DNA of 31,809 bases from the IMG/VR virus record IMGVR_UViG_3300030090_002903, positions 1-31,809 of that record; one strand, given 5' to 3'. This document shows positions 11,982 to 31,809 of the stretch, piece after piece; position 1 is the stretch's first letter; every line of letters starts with the position of its first letter. Source of the stretch: a virus. Under the pieces are notes generated by a model. The model saw only the letters and a program-made list of their open reading frames with translations, was not told the origin of the DNA and did not search any database. The position numbers and the translations under genes are program-made.

Positions 11982-12042
11982 CAAAAGTTGATTTTAGTAA
12001 ATTTAAAGATTTCTTAAAATATTTAGGAAAACACATAGTAAA

Positions 12043-12137
12043 ACTTAAAATTTTACGAAAACACCCCAAATTGCATTTAAGATACCTAACAGCTTCATTA
12101 TCAATGTCAAGTTAAATTGTTATACTTGTAATCAAAA
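12043..12137 (-). repeat. Inverted partner of the 28.1-kb element
   Basis: Read on the - strand from 12137, this begins TTTTGATTACAAGTATA, continues with CAA-n-TTAACTTGA-n-ATTGAT, and later has CTTAAATGCAATTTG and GTTTTC-GTAAAATTTTA. The same blocks occur in the same order on the + strand at 28056-28147. The first 38 bases differ at about three positions; the rest is less alike. Both copies lie in the two largest protein-poor gaps. The rest of the gap 11982-12379 holds AT-rich DNA, the palindrome at 12222 and the operator-like repeat at 12291. Confidence 0.8.
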
Positions 12138-12221
12138 AATAAAGAAAAATTGATTTATGATGCCTTTATTCAATTTCCTTGACGAGAAAAAAACGGTGTT
12201 TTTAGGGGTTTTTTTACCTAT

Positions 12222-12236
12222 AACGTGCAATACGTT
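12222..12236. promoter_or_regulatory. Small palindrome AACGT-N5-ACGTT
   Basis: AACGT and ACGTT flank GCAAT. Two CG dinucleotides in a short perfect inverted repeat stand out in this CG-poor sequence. It follows a T-rich run (12198-12215). It may be a protein-binding site or part of an origin; nothing further shows which. Confidence 0.35.
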
Positions 12237-12290
12237 CATTTTTATTTTTTCTTCAAATCTTAATTTTTTAAGTCTATACTAACTCTTACC

Positions 12291-17125: not shown

Positions 17126-17301
17126 ATCCAGACTATTATACCAAAGGAATAGAGGTTACAAAATTCATTCTAAGTTGGAATATGAATTTCTGTGAAGGAA
17201 ATATTATTAAATACATTGTAAGATATAAAAACAAGAACGGTTTAGAAGATTTAAAGAAGGCTAGAAAATACCTAGATTTATTAATTCAAAATAAAACTTG
17301 A
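17053..17301 (+). CDS. DUF3310 (SaV-like) protein
   Basis: From about residue 23 the sequence is DPINPDYYTKGIEVTKFILS, then FCEGNIIKYIVRYKNKNGLE and DLKKARKYLDLLI, which is the DUF3310 pattern (DPI-NPxHY...W-x-x-x-FCLGNAIKYI-x-R...DLKKA-x-WYL). The function of the family is unknown; it is common among phage replication genes. ATG 17053 and ATG 17074 are both possible and both overlap the HNH gene. The TGA stop (17299-17301) overlaps the TTGACA of the next promoter. Confidence 0.75.
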   Translation: MDKRKIKMFKRRPKRENQKSKDPINPDYYTKGIEVTKFILSWNMNFCEGNIIKYIVRYKNKNGLEDLKKARKYLDLLIQNKT

Positions 17302-17327
17302 CATATATAAACTTTTATTGTTATATT
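17298..17327 (+). promoter_or_regulatory. Cassette promoter 1 (drives the structured RNA)
   Basis: TTGACA (17298-17303), 18-nt spacer, extended -10 TGTTATATT with TATATT at 17322-17327. Five bases later is the start box AAGGTTAAT (17333-17341). The spacer holds the operator variant TATAAA-N6-TTGTTA (17306-17323). No protein-coding frame of note follows for 500 bp, so this promoter serves an RNA. Confidence 0.8.
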
Positions 17328-17333
17328 GTGTTA

Positions 17334-17786
17334 AGGTTAATGAATAAATATTAATCAATTGTTTTTTGAAAGAATTAAAAATTAAAGAATTAGGGAAGCC
17401 TTTGTACAGAGGTACTTGAGAAGTTTAAAATGGTGAATCGGGAGGTCTAAATTCTAGAGTAGTAAGACCAAACAGCATCCCCTAATAAAATTTATATTTA
17501 GGTTGCCTTGCCACGCCAAGTTATCTGTGAGAAGATGTAAAAAGGAATTTCGACAGGATGAAAACATGTAAGTAGTCCTTAAAAGTGAATCGGTGCTATA
17601 TGTCAGCCTGCCTAAAAAAATTAAAACTAGGGTATCTATGGTTGTAACCCAACGTAGGTTTTCTGTGAGAAGATGAACAAGGGAATCGGTGAGAACAAAT
17701 ACTAGGATAGTTCTGTAAAAGTTAAATTGACTATGTACCAGCCCCCCTACCCCAATTAAAAGCCCCTTGTAATGAGGGGTTTTTTA
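17334..17786 (+). ncRNA. Three-domain tandem structured RNA, own promoter and terminator
   Basis: Between promoter and terminator lie three successive domains, each closed by an outer stem. Domain A: ATTAGGG (17389-17395) with CCCTAAT (17480-17486). Domain B: TTTAGG (17497-17502) with CCTAAA (17611-17616). Domain C: TAGGG (17628-17632) with CCCTA (17745-17749). B and C share the identical 14-mer TCTGTGAGAAGATG (17524-17537 and 17662-17675) and a similar 3' end (CTATGT-n-CAGCC / CTATATGTCAGCC). A has the related TTGAGAAG and GGTGAATCGG; C has GGGAATCGG. Inner stems include GGTCT/AGACC (17444-17448 / 17465-17469) and AAGGA/TCCTT (17542-17546 / 17576-17580). There is no useful ORF. GC content is visibly above its surroundings. 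I do not recognise a known RNA class. Confidence 0.8.
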
Positions 17787-17790
17787 TTTT
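17758..17790 (+). terminator. Terminator of the structured RNA
   Basis: CCCCT (17763-17767) pairs with AGGGG (17775-17779), preceded by A's and followed by T's (17780-17785), the standard intrinsic form. It begins 9 nt after the closing stem of domain C. Confidence 0.85.
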
Positions 17791-17803: not shown

Positions 17804-17833
17804 TTGACATATATAAAGTTTTATTGCTATATT
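17804..17833 (+). promoter_or_regulatory. Cassette promoter 2
   Basis: TTGACA (17804-17809), 18-nt spacer, extended -10 TGCTATATT (TATATT 17828-17833), start box AAGGTTAAT at 17839. Operator variant TATAAA-N6-TTGCTA at 17812-17829. Nearly identical to cassette promoter 1 over about 40 bp. Confidence 0.8.
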
Positions 17834-17874: not shown

Positions 17875-18072
17875 ATGAAAAATAAAACTTACAATCTGAA
17901 ACTAACTAAAGATGAACTAACAGTATTAGACCTATGTTTATATGAATACCATAGTTTATTAGCAGAAAAGCATGATGATGAAGATGTATCAATGCAAGAT
18001 GAATATTATAATGTTAAATATAGAATAATCAATATAATATCTAAAATAAATGAATCTGATAGGGGGCTGTAA
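17875..18072 (+). CDS. Small acidic protein, 65 aa
   Basis: GAGGA at 17862-17866 fixes the start at ATG 17875; longer frames run back into the promoter. The product (MKNKTYNLKLTKDELTVLDL, LAEKHDDEDVSMQDEYYNVK) is helical, with a DDED acidic patch. No family recognised. First gene of a two-gene cassette; its stop overlaps the start of the membrane microprotein by one base. Confidence 0.6.
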   Translation: MKNKTYNLKLTKDELTVLDLCLYEYHSLLAEKHDDEDVSMQDEYYNVKYRIINIISKINESDRGL

Positions 18073-27913: not shown

Positions 27914-27946
27914 TTATACTTAAATTATTTAAATTAGGTAAAATAA

Positions 27947-28036
27947 ATGAATATGAAATTGAATCTAAAAAACATCAAAAAAGCCTTAAAAAGGGCTTAT
28001 TTTAGATTCTTAGTAAAATTGAATAAAGGGGGCTAG
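27947..28036 (+). CDS. Possible cationic microprotein, 29 aa
   Basis: ATG 27947 with TAGG at 27935-27938 opens a frame for MNMKLNLKNIKKALKRAYFR and FLVKLNKGG, a basic amphipathic helix. It lies in the gap after the capsid gene and contains the 10-bp inverted repeat at 27961/28000, so the peptide may be only a by-product of the hairpin. Low confidence; a real toxin or lysis-type peptide is possible. Confidence 0.3.
   Translation: MNMKLNLKNIKKALKRAYFRFLVKLNKGG
27961..28009. repeat. Two-level inverted repeat (hairpin)
   Basis: GAATCTAAAA (27961-27970) pairs with TTTTAGATTC (28000-28009), and inside it AAGCC (27981-27985) pairs with GGCTT (27994-27998). The whole can form one long interrupted hairpin in DNA or RNA. 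It is followed by AAAATTG, not T's, so a terminator role is doubtful. Confidence 0.6.
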
Positions 28037-28055
28037 AAGCCATTTTTAATAAAAT

Positions 28056-28147
28056 TTTGATTACAAGTATATCAACTTAACTTGATATTGATGTTATTGA
28101 AGTTAGACCCCTTAAATGCAATTTGATAGTTTTCTGTAAAATTTTAG
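28056..28147 (+). repeat. Noncoding element paired with the inverted copy at 12.1 kb
   Basis: It carries the same ordered blocks as 12137-12043 read on the - strand (TTTTGATTACAAGTATA; CAA-n-TTAACTTGA-n-ATTGAT; CTTAAATGCAATTTG; GTTTTC-t-GTAAAATTTTA). At 28069-28088 lies ATATCAA-CTTAAC-TTGATAT, whose arms equal the operator of the cassette promoters. The remaining part of the gap (28148-28239) is A-rich and shows nothing clear. Confidence 0.8.
28070..28087. promoter_or_regulatory. Operator copy TATCAA-N6-TTGATA away from a cassette promoter
   Basis: TATCAA and TTGATA, spaced by CTTAAC, give the most symmetric copy in the window: with the flanking A and T, 18 of 20 bases are palindromic. No TTGACA is placed at the standard distance. 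It may repress a weak fibre promoter, or be a looping or origin site shared with the 12.1-kb copy. Confidence 0.6.
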
Positions 28148-28239
28148 GAAAAACCATTAAAAAACTTAAAAATTTTAAGAAAAATTGATAAATGAGAAAG
28201 TCAAGGCTTTTTTAAAAAAGAAAGAAAATTGAGGTTTTT

Positions 28240-28422
28240 ATGGAATATTACAAGCAAAAAAATTTTTCAAATGTTATAGAAGTTGACCCAAAAAAACACC
28301 CAGAAATGAAACAAAAAGTTTTAGATGAAGGCTGGGTTCAAGTAAAAAGTTTAAATGATTTAACACCTTTTAAAGCCCCAAAAAAATCTAAAAGAAAGGT
28401 GAAAAAACAAGATGGCAAGTAG
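28240..28422 (+). CDS. Small basic protein before the fibre, 60 aa
   Basis: GAGG at 28230-28233 precedes the ATG. The product contains NVIEVDPKKHPEMKQKVLDE, GWVQVKSLNDLTPF and a Lys/Arg-rich tail (KKSKRKVKKQDGK). It overlaps the fibre gene by 11 bp. Family not recognised; the position suggests a fibre-linked or regulatory role. Confidence 0.6.
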   Translation: MEYYKQKNFSNVIEVDPKKHPEMKQKVLDEGWVQVKSLNDLTPFKAPKKSKRKVKKQDGK

Positions 28423-31400
28423 AACTTCATTTACCAATGTAAGAATTTCTGATTCATTTGGTCAGCTATTAATAGTAGGTGATGATTCTGGAATTACAAG
28501 TTCTTCTGTTCAAATTTTTGATGCAGATGGAACTGGTAGCCCATTATCACTTTCAACAACTCAACTAACTATAAATGATGGAGCTAATGATTTTGATATA
28601 GCTTCACATGATGGAACTAATGGTTTAAAACTAGGGGGAACTTTAGTTACAACAAGTGCTAGTGAATTAAACCTTTTAGATGGATTAACTGCTGGTACAG
28701 TAACAGCTTCTAAGTTTGTTTTAGTAGATTCTAATAGTGATATTTCTGGATTTAGAAACATTACTGCCACTGGAACTATTCAAGCTTCAGACTTTACTGC
28801 AACTGGAAATACTACAATAGGTAATGCAAGTTCTGATACTGTGGCTTTCAATGCTACATTAACTACAGATATTATTTTTGAAGGTAGTTCAGCAGATGCT
28901 AATGAACTTACTTTGTCAGCTGGTAATCCTAGTGGTGATAGAACTGTAACCCTTCCAGATGCTACTGATACACTTGTAGGAAAAGCAACTACAGATACTT
29001 TAACAAATAAAAGCATAGATGTAGATAATAACACTGTAACAAATATTGAAGTAGATAATTTAAAATCTGGTGTTTTAGATACAGATATAAGTTCAGTAAG
29101 TGGAAGTGATGATACTTTAGCAAGTGCTAAAGCAATTAAAACTTATGTTGATTCACAAGTAACAGCACAAGATTTAGATGCTACTACTGATTCTGGAACA
29201 ATAGCAATTGACTTAGATTCAGAAACATTAACTATTGCTGGTGGTGAAGGTATAGACACATCTGGTTCAACAAATACAATTACCATTGCTGGTGAAGATG
29301 CAAGTACATCAAATAAAGGAATTGCAAGTTTTTCAAGTTCACATTTTACGGTTAGTTCTGGAAGTGTAAGCATAGCAACTGATTCAATTGATGACACTCT
29401 GATTGATTTTGGTACTGGGACTAACCAAGTGAACACAGATGATTTACCAGAAGGTTCTTCTAATTTATATTTAACAAATGAAAGAATTGATGATAGGGTT
29501 GATGCTTTAGCAACAGCTGGTGAAGGTATTGATATAACTTATGATGATTCAGCTGGAACTCTAACATTTGCTGGGGAAGATGCTTCTACAAGTAACAAGG
29601 GAATAGCTAGTTTTTCAAGTGATAATTTTGATGTTAGCTCTGGTGCTGTAACTATAAAAAATGATGGTGTTATTTTAGCTACAGAAACTACTGGAGATTT
29701 TGTCCAAAATATAACTGGAGGTACTGGAATAGATTCTACTGGTGCAACTTCTGGTGAAAACATTGCACATACTTTAAGTATTGACTTAAATGAATTAACA
29801 ACAGAAACCACTATAGCTGATGATGATTTTATAGCTATGGTAGATGCTACTGATAGTGGCTCTGGAAAAATTACTTTTGAAAATTTAGAGGATGCAATAT
29901 TTGCTTCTGTAAGTGGAGATGTTTTAATAGCAGAAGATGGAACTTCTACAATCCAAGCAAATTCTGTAGCTTTGGGAACTGACACTACTGGTAATTATGT
30001 TTCAGCAATTTCTGGAACTTCTAATGAAATAGAGGTTTCTGGTTCTGGAAGTGAAACAGCAACAGTTACTATTGGATTACCAGATGATGTTACTATTACT
30101 GGCAACCTAACAGTCAATGGAACTACTACTACAATTGACACTACAAACCTAGTAGTTGAAGACCCATTAATTAAATTAGCTAAAAACAATAATAGTGCTG
30201 ATTCAGTTGATATAGGATTTTATGGATTATATGATACCAGTGGAAGCACAGACTTATATGCTGGTTTATTTAGAGATGCAAATGATTCTGGTAAATTTAA
30301 ATTATTTGTAGATTTACAAGCAGAGCCAACTACCACTGTTAATGTAAGTGGAACTGGTTATGCTACTGGAACATTAGTTGCAAATCTTGAAGGTAATGTT
30401 ACTGGAACAATACAAACTGCATCACAAACCAATATAACATCTGTTGGAACTTTAGGTGCTGGTGCTATTTCAAGTGGATTTGGGAACATTGATATAGGTT
30501 CTTCAAATCTTACTGCAACTGGAACAATTAGTTTGGGGAGTACTTCATTTAATGACAATAATATTACAAACGTGGGGTCAGTTAGTCTTGACAGTTTGGA
30601 ATCTTCTGGTAGCACTATTGAAGTTAGCTTGGATGATAATCAAGCTGGTGCTTTTAGTGTTAAAGAATCTTCTAATTCATATATTACAATTGACACTTCA
30701 AATTCTTCAGAAAAGATACAATTCCACAAAGCATTAGACATAGATGCAACATCTGATTTTGGTTCTAATGCTATGACCAATGTGAATATAGATTCTGGGT
30801 CAATAGATGGAGCAACCATTGCAACTTCAGATATAACTGTTGGCACTGGTAAAACATTAGATGTTTCTGGTGGAACTTTAACTTTAGCAAACGACCAGAT
30901 TAGTGGTGATAAAGTTTCTGGTGGTACAATAGGAACAACAACTATAACAGCATTAGCTGGAGATTTAAGTTTAGGTGATAATGCAATTACAAATGTAGGT
31001 GATATTGCTCTTGATTCTATAAGTGCAGATAACAACACTATGGATATTACATTAACAGATAATCAAGCTACAGCATTAGAAATTAAAGAAAGCACAAATG
31101 CTTATTTAACTTTTGTAACTACTAATAGTGGTGAAAAAATAACACTTGGTAAAAAGTTAGAAGCTGGTTCTGTTGAGATTGAAGGAAGTGCTTTTGACAT
31201 TGATGGTGGAACTATAGATGGAACAGATGTAACAGTAGGTTCTGGAAAAACTCTTGATGTTAGTGCTGGTACTTTAACACTTGCTAATGACCAAATAAGT
31301 GGAGATAAAGTAACTGGTGGAACTATTGGTTCAATAACAATTACTGCTCTTGCTGGAGATTTGAGTTTGGGAGATAATGATATTTCCAATGTAGGAGATA

Positions 31401-31809
31401 TTTCAGCTGATAGCATTAGCTCAGATGGAAGCACTTTAAACATTGCAATGGATGACAACCAAGCTTCTGCATTTAGTATTAAAGAAAGCACAAATTCTTA
31501 TTTAACAATTGATACAACTAATTCTTCAGAAAAAATACAAGTTCATCAAGCTTTAGATATTGATGCTGTTTCAGACTTTGGTAGCAATGCAATGACTAAT
31601 GTAAATATTGATTCTGGTGATATTGCAACAGCAGTTACAGTTGGAGGTTCTGACACAATAACTGAATTTGTACAAGATATTGCTGGAGGAATGTTTTCTG
31701 GAAATACTGAAACTGGAATTACAGCAACTTATCAAGATGGAGATAATAATATTGATTTAGCAATTAATGCTTCACAAACAACAATAACATCATTATTAGC
31801 AACTGATAT
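28412..31809 (+). CDS. Long repetitive tail fibre protein (3' truncated)
   Basis: The frame opens at ATG 28412 (MASRTSFTNVRISDSFGQLL) and stays open to the window edge: more than 1,130 residues of Ser/Thr/Asn/Asp/Gly-rich, beta-type sequence without long helices. Internal repeats: EDASTSNKGIASFSS at 29294 and 29576; three units carrying DNQA-x-A-[FL]-[SE]-[IV]-KES (from about 30635, 31058, 31454; spacing 141 and 132 codons) with LANDQISGDKV and LAGDLSLGDN blocks. This is the look of a trimeric beta-structured fibre. It binds the host surface and sets host range. The C-terminus probably enters the window at base 1. Confidence 0.85.
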   Translation, partial: MASRTSFTNVRISDSFGQLLIVGDDSGITSSSVQIFDADGTGSPLSLSTTQLTINDGANDFDIASHDGTNGLKLGGTLVTTSASELNLLDGLTAGTVTASKFVLVDSNSDISGFRNITATGTIQASDFTATGNTTIGNASSDTVAFNATLTTDIIFEGSSADANELTLSAGNPSGDRTVTLPDATDTLVGKATTDTLTNKSIDVDNNTVTNIEVDNLKSGVLDTDISSVSGSDDTLASAKAIKTYVDSQVTAQDLDATTDSGTIAIDLDSETLTIAGGEGIDTSGSTNTITIAGEDASTSNKGIASFSSSHFTVSSGSVSIATDSIDDTLIDFGTGTNQVNTDDLPEGSSNLYLTNERIDDRVDALATAGEGIDITYDDSAGTLTFAGEDASTSNKGIASFSSDNFDVSSGAVTIKNDGVILATETTGDFVQNITGGTGIDSTGATSGENIAHTLSIDLNELTTETTIADDDFIAMVDATDSGSGKITFENLEDAIFASVSGDVLIAEDGTSTIQANSVALGTDTTGNYVSAISGTSNEIEVSGSGSETATVTIGLPDDVTITGNLTVNGTTTTIDTTNLVVEDPLIKLAKNNNSADSVDIGFYGLYDTSGSTDLYAGLFRDANDSGKFKLFVDLQAEPTTTVNVSGTGYATGTLVANLEGNVTGTIQTASQTNITSVGTLGAGAISSGFGNIDIGSSNLTATGTISLGSTSFNDNNITNVGSVSLDSLESSGSTIEVSLDDNQAGAFSVKESSNSYITIDTSNSSEKIQFHKALDIDATSDFGSNAMTNVNIDSGSIDGATIATSDITVGTGKTLDVSGGTLTLANDQISGDKVSGGTIGTTTITALAGDLSLGDNAITNVGDIALDSISADNNTMDITLTDNQATALEIKESTNAYLTFVTTNSGEKITLGKKLEAGSVEIEGSAFDIDGGTIDGTDVTVGSGKTLDVSAGTLTLANDQISGDKVTGGTIGSITITALAGDLSLGDNDISNVGDISADSISSDGSTLNIAMDDNQASAFSIKESTNSYLTIDTTNSSEKIQVHQALDIDAVSDFGSNAMTNVNIDSGDIATAVTVGGSDTITEFVQDIAGGMFSGNTETGITATYQDGDNNIDLAINASQTTITSLLATD
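30632..31560 (+). repeat. Protein-level tandem repeats in the fibre gene
   Basis: Three successive units of 396-423 bp code for nearly the same residues (for example ESTNSYLTIDTTNSSEKIQ, FGSNAMTNVNIDSG, TLTLANDQISGDKV) but differ at many third codon positions. Units are in phase. They probably form one turn set each of a fibre shaft. Confidence 0.8.

Follow-up and report, generated by a model that had tools for sequence, protein, structure and literature searches.

Standalone structured RNAs in phages are few and mostly unexplained, and the GOLLD and ROOL RNAs are associated with phages. These two are large structured noncoding RNAs that have been the subject of a cryo-EM study (PMC12286853), the STAXI motif (RF01728) comprises standalone structured RNA repeats that occur 2–3 in tandem near genes for DNA-acting proteins (PMC2864571), and tandem glnA RNAs have been described as well (PMC2864571). 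The locus presented here, which likely encodes a structured noncoding RNA that stands on its own and is composed of duplicated domains, resembles STAXI in having standalone structured units repeated in tandem, whereas the STAXI unit is mainly a pseudoknot and the units of the phage RNA are ~100–120 nt long. With GOLLD and ROOL it shares the character of a large structured noncoding RNA, but it is shorter and has one domain internally repeated. Tandem riboswitch arrays (glnA, glycine) are likewise built of consecutive related folded domains, but in the phage the next gene has a promoter of its own. Finally, type III antitoxin RNAs (ToxI type) pair a toxin gene with adjacent short direct repeats, whereas the repeat units here exceed 100 nt. 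No Rfam match was obtained for STAXI, GOLLD, ROOL or known aptamer families.

The window, by which we mean the whole stretch of DNA analysed, is a 31,809-base virus record with an overall G+C content of 31% that we assign to a tailed phage because it carries tape measure, NinG-like, DUF3310 and terminase genes. The RNA locus follows the DUF3310 gene (end 17301) and is the first in a row of small genes, which between 17298 and 21300 mostly form cassettes of promoter, gene and terminator. The promoters of these cassettes belong to one sequence family, and in several cassettes the two hexamers are separated by a palindrome-like TATCAA-N6-TTGATA. Elsewhere in the record, a pair of long intergenic stretches (11982–12280 and 27915–28211) forms imperfect inverted copies (301 aligned bases, 67% identity, E = 1e-33) that bracket the 16-kb middle of the genome, and direct repeats of 300 and 192 nt that are 71–74% identical lie at 30607–31617 within a long ORF (28412–31807).

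Evaluating the signals around the locus, we found the sigma-70 promoter and the intrinsic terminator (17758–17784; 17758–17790 in Table 1) where the initial annotation had placed them, so that the locus would yield an RNA of ~450 nt with a transcription start at about 17334. In sequence the promoter is of one family with the cassette promoters at 17804, 19367, 20092 and 20740, and the initial annotation's statement that it carries the operator comes down to this family likeness. The promoter at 17804 is equally strong and serves the downstream gene at 17875. Because the locus has its own promoter and terminator and the next gene has a separate promoter, we read its RNA as one that acts in trans and not as a leader. 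The absence of a coding frame also held up, the longest sense frame in the RNA region being at most 37 codons, and ARAGORN reported no tRNA or tmRNA genes. On the minus strand, 98 codons are free of stops (17457–17750) with the B and C repeats sharing a frame, and equally long stretches occurred in 15 of 500 shuffles; over the RNA, there was no antisense ORF of at least 60 aa with a start codon. In A+T-rich genomes, raised intergenic G+C is a usual sign of structured RNA, and the RNA region stands at 38% G+C versus 14–32% in its leader and other intergenic stretches, which places it in the top 0.7% among all 366-nt windows.

Table 1. Features of the RNA locus, in window coordinates; helices inside the domains are predicted.
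Feature	Positions	Strand	Details
Sigma-70 promoter of the RNA	17298..17327	+	TTGACA, 18 nt, TATATT; TG before second hexamer; 11/12
5' leader	17335..17388	+	A+T-rich (15% G+C)
Possible 5' hairpin in leader	17335-17356	+	8 bp
Domain A	17389..17486	+	P1 ATTAGGG 17389-17395 / CCCTAAT 17480-17486
Domain A, inner parts			hairpin CCTTT/AGAGG; TGAGAAG motif; GAATCGG; P4 GGTCT/AGACC with loop AAATTCTAGAGTAGTA
A-B linker	17487..17496	+	A+T-rich
Domain B	17497..17616	+	P1 TTTAGG 17497-17502 / CCTAAA 17611-17616
Domain B, 14-mer	17524-17537
Domain B, H2	17543-17545/17607-17609
Domain B, H3	17552-17555/17601-17604
Domain B, P4	17556-17559/17575-17578
Domain B, P5	17584-17586/17595-17597
B-C linker	17617..17627	+	A+T-rich; AAAATTAAAAC
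Domain C	17628..17749	+	P1 TAGGG 17628-17632 / CCCTA 17745-17749
Domain C, 14-mer	17662-17675
Domain C, H2	17681-17683/17742-17744
Domain C, H3	17688-17691/17736-17739
Domain C, P4	17692-17695/17711-17714
Domain C, P5	17720-17722/17730-17732
Intrinsic terminator	17758..17790	+

The proposal that three related domains follow one another in this RNA was borne out by local alignments against dinucleotide shuffles, which gave z = 10.0 for B and C, z = 5.2 (p = 0.001) for A and C, and z = 3.2 (p = 0.0075) for A and B. Domains B and C do carry the identical 14-mer reported earlier (TCTGTGAGAAGATG), and a repeat this long arose in only 2 of 1,000 dinucleotide shuffles. Domain A, which is shorter than B and C and has no P5, shares with C the spaced motif GAATCGG-N7-AAATNCTAGRNTAG (mean 0.00 in window shuffles). 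Most of the N7 belongs to the 5' arm of a hairpin, and the arms of this hairpin have different sequences in the two domains (GGTCT/AGACC in A, GAAC/GTTC in C). The linkers resemble one another as well, with 7–13% G+C. Given the related domains, the motif common to A and C and the similar linkers, A, B and C would have arisen by tandem duplication of one unit together with its linker, the ancestor presumably being a structured domain of ~100–120 nt.

Whether this structure has been under selection is less simply read than the initial annotation had it. All three closing stems are present at the positions given for them, but perfect stems of this kind are a poor argument for structure, three consecutive stems of at least 5 bp appearing in 110 of 300 shuffles (37%) and three with 2 or more G/C in each arm in 23 of 300 (8%). 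Nor are these stems compensatory with different sequences, as had been claimed; because all three P1 stems contain a TAGG/CCTA core, they show conservation instead. Stem tests anchored on the shared motifs gave p = 0.013 (joint) for P1, p = 0.04 for P4 and p = 0.12 for P2, and the folding energy was not below that of shuffles, either for the whole RNA (MFE z = +0.79) or for single domains. The inner helices of B and C gave a different kind of evidence. RNAalifold on a sequence-only alignment of the two domains returned -7.9 versus -3.3 ± 2.1 for column shuffles (19 of 500), and in the consensus fold all 17 of 17 pairs form in both copies, with 5 changed on both sides, a count that drops to 0–1 when the partner is slid. 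These double-sided changes include H3 (GACA/UGUC vs GGUG/UACC), H2 (AGG/CCU vs GGG/CCC) and the outer pair of P4 (G-C vs A-U). For two sequences, a fold derived from them and a chance of ~0.03–0.04, such covariation is suggestive of selected structure, and we regard the predicted inner fold of B and C as moderately supported. Domain A was left out of the covariation counts because MAFFT misplaced it in the alignment; it scored 6.1 bits (E = 4.3) with the B/C covariance model, and to judge from its letters AUG or GUG and CAU at the H2 position can pair. A hand-made alignment (z = -3.9) was set aside because it had been drawn to fit the structure.

Searching for relatives, we found that Rfam covariance models, used at the gathering score and also with E allowed up to 10, returned no family match and weak matches only, mostly around the terminator, which agrees with the initial annotation's description of the RNA as unrecognised. 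The 14-mer in IMG/VR had contexts unlike the domain among the matches listed, motif patterns in the same database fell nearly all in open frames and in none with the domain context, and one pattern run over 84,980 prokaryotic genomes gave 17 matches, again with the domain context in none. Against phages, blastn returned short matches only (in leader or terminator parts), and against plasmids no match. By terminase, two further contigs from this phage come nearest (~100%), followed by contigs at 65% and below; terminase relatives, whole records included, held no copy of the RNA, the same-phage contigs and the 65% relative stopping before the locus. A covariance model found no copy in 27 related virus records and, in 780 whole genomes (two broad samples), three weak matches, below the chance expectation at the cut-off. 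A promoter pattern search matched solely a contig from this phage that begins downstream of the RNA, and a post hoc descriptor run over the collected loci recovered only the three domains plus one match in a locus that a pattern search had itself brought in. At present the locus is known from one genome. We regard it as a credible candidate for an orphan RNA whose domains are duplicates, and as a real, though unconfirmed, candidate for a family of RNAs that is new.

Several other explanations were weighed against these observations. Related tandem domains immediately preceding a terminator, with the C-rich 3' P1 strand of domain C only 9 nt from it, are what one would see if the locus were a cis-acting, riboswitch-like array in which three related aptamers set read-through into the gene at 17875, but we consider this improbable in view of that gene's own promoter, the lack of a known aptamer match, and a predicted fold without an evident alternative antiterminator. 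A self-assembling ornate RNA like GOLLD or ROOL, one that is produced late and forms oligomers, would also be a large standalone multi-domain phage RNA; it is nonetheless very unlikely here, with Rfam matching neither family, the RNA being shorter and its plain folding energy unremarkable. Tandem domains would fit a CsrA-type sponge too, in which host CsrA/RsmA is titrated via repeated GGA motifs, but the counts show no excess (GGA, 6 vs 7.2 expected; ANGGA, 3 vs 2.6 expected) and make this scenario extremely implausible.

That the locus could be a non-functional remnant resembling an RNA gene in appearance only, either a duplicated intergenic stretch or a decayed antisense frame, finds some basis in the stop-free antisense stretch, an energy no better than shuffles and the orphan sequence, but we think it quite unlikely since the locus has a promoter and terminator of its own, is a G+C outlier, keeps a loop motif on differing stems, shows double-sided changes between B and C, and lacks a long antisense ORF with a start codon. 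A precursor of three small RNAs that is cut in the A+T-rich linkers and base pairs with targets would be in keeping with the alike, G+C-poor linkers and the self-contained domains; complementarity to the shared motif in the phage is poor, however (one site with 3 mismatches), and we hold this to be an unlikely, though not far-fetched, alternative.

The best explanation overall, which we put forward only tentatively, is a trans-acting RNA of ~450 nt that forms its own unit, arose by tandem duplication and works by multivalent binding or processing. Promoter, noncoding RNA and terminator would make up a separate transcription unit, in which B and C would each fold into a P1 stem, a hairpin in which the GUGAGAAG motif lies, and an inner arm, made of H2 and H3, that forks into P4 and P5. 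With one domain repeated within one transcript, the RNA may bind multivalently or may be processed to give three small RNAs. Acting in trans, the repeated domain might serve as a decoy or scaffold that binds a single partner several times over, the likeliest partner being an RNA-binding protein of the host or the phage; such multivalent protein binding is possible but somewhat doubtful. Alternatively, linker cleavage may yield three paralogous small RNAs. More doubtful again is the idea of a new phage RNA class in which a reiterated structured domain, with the GUGAGAAG motif and a loop both conserved and the stem under that loop variable, captures several copies of one host factor while infection proceeds.

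For work on such RNAs, the internal domain copies offer a comparative handle even without homologues, and the covariance model can be used on metagenomes for relatives. If a host factor is bound, this RNA would point to a new way of taking over the host by means of RNA.
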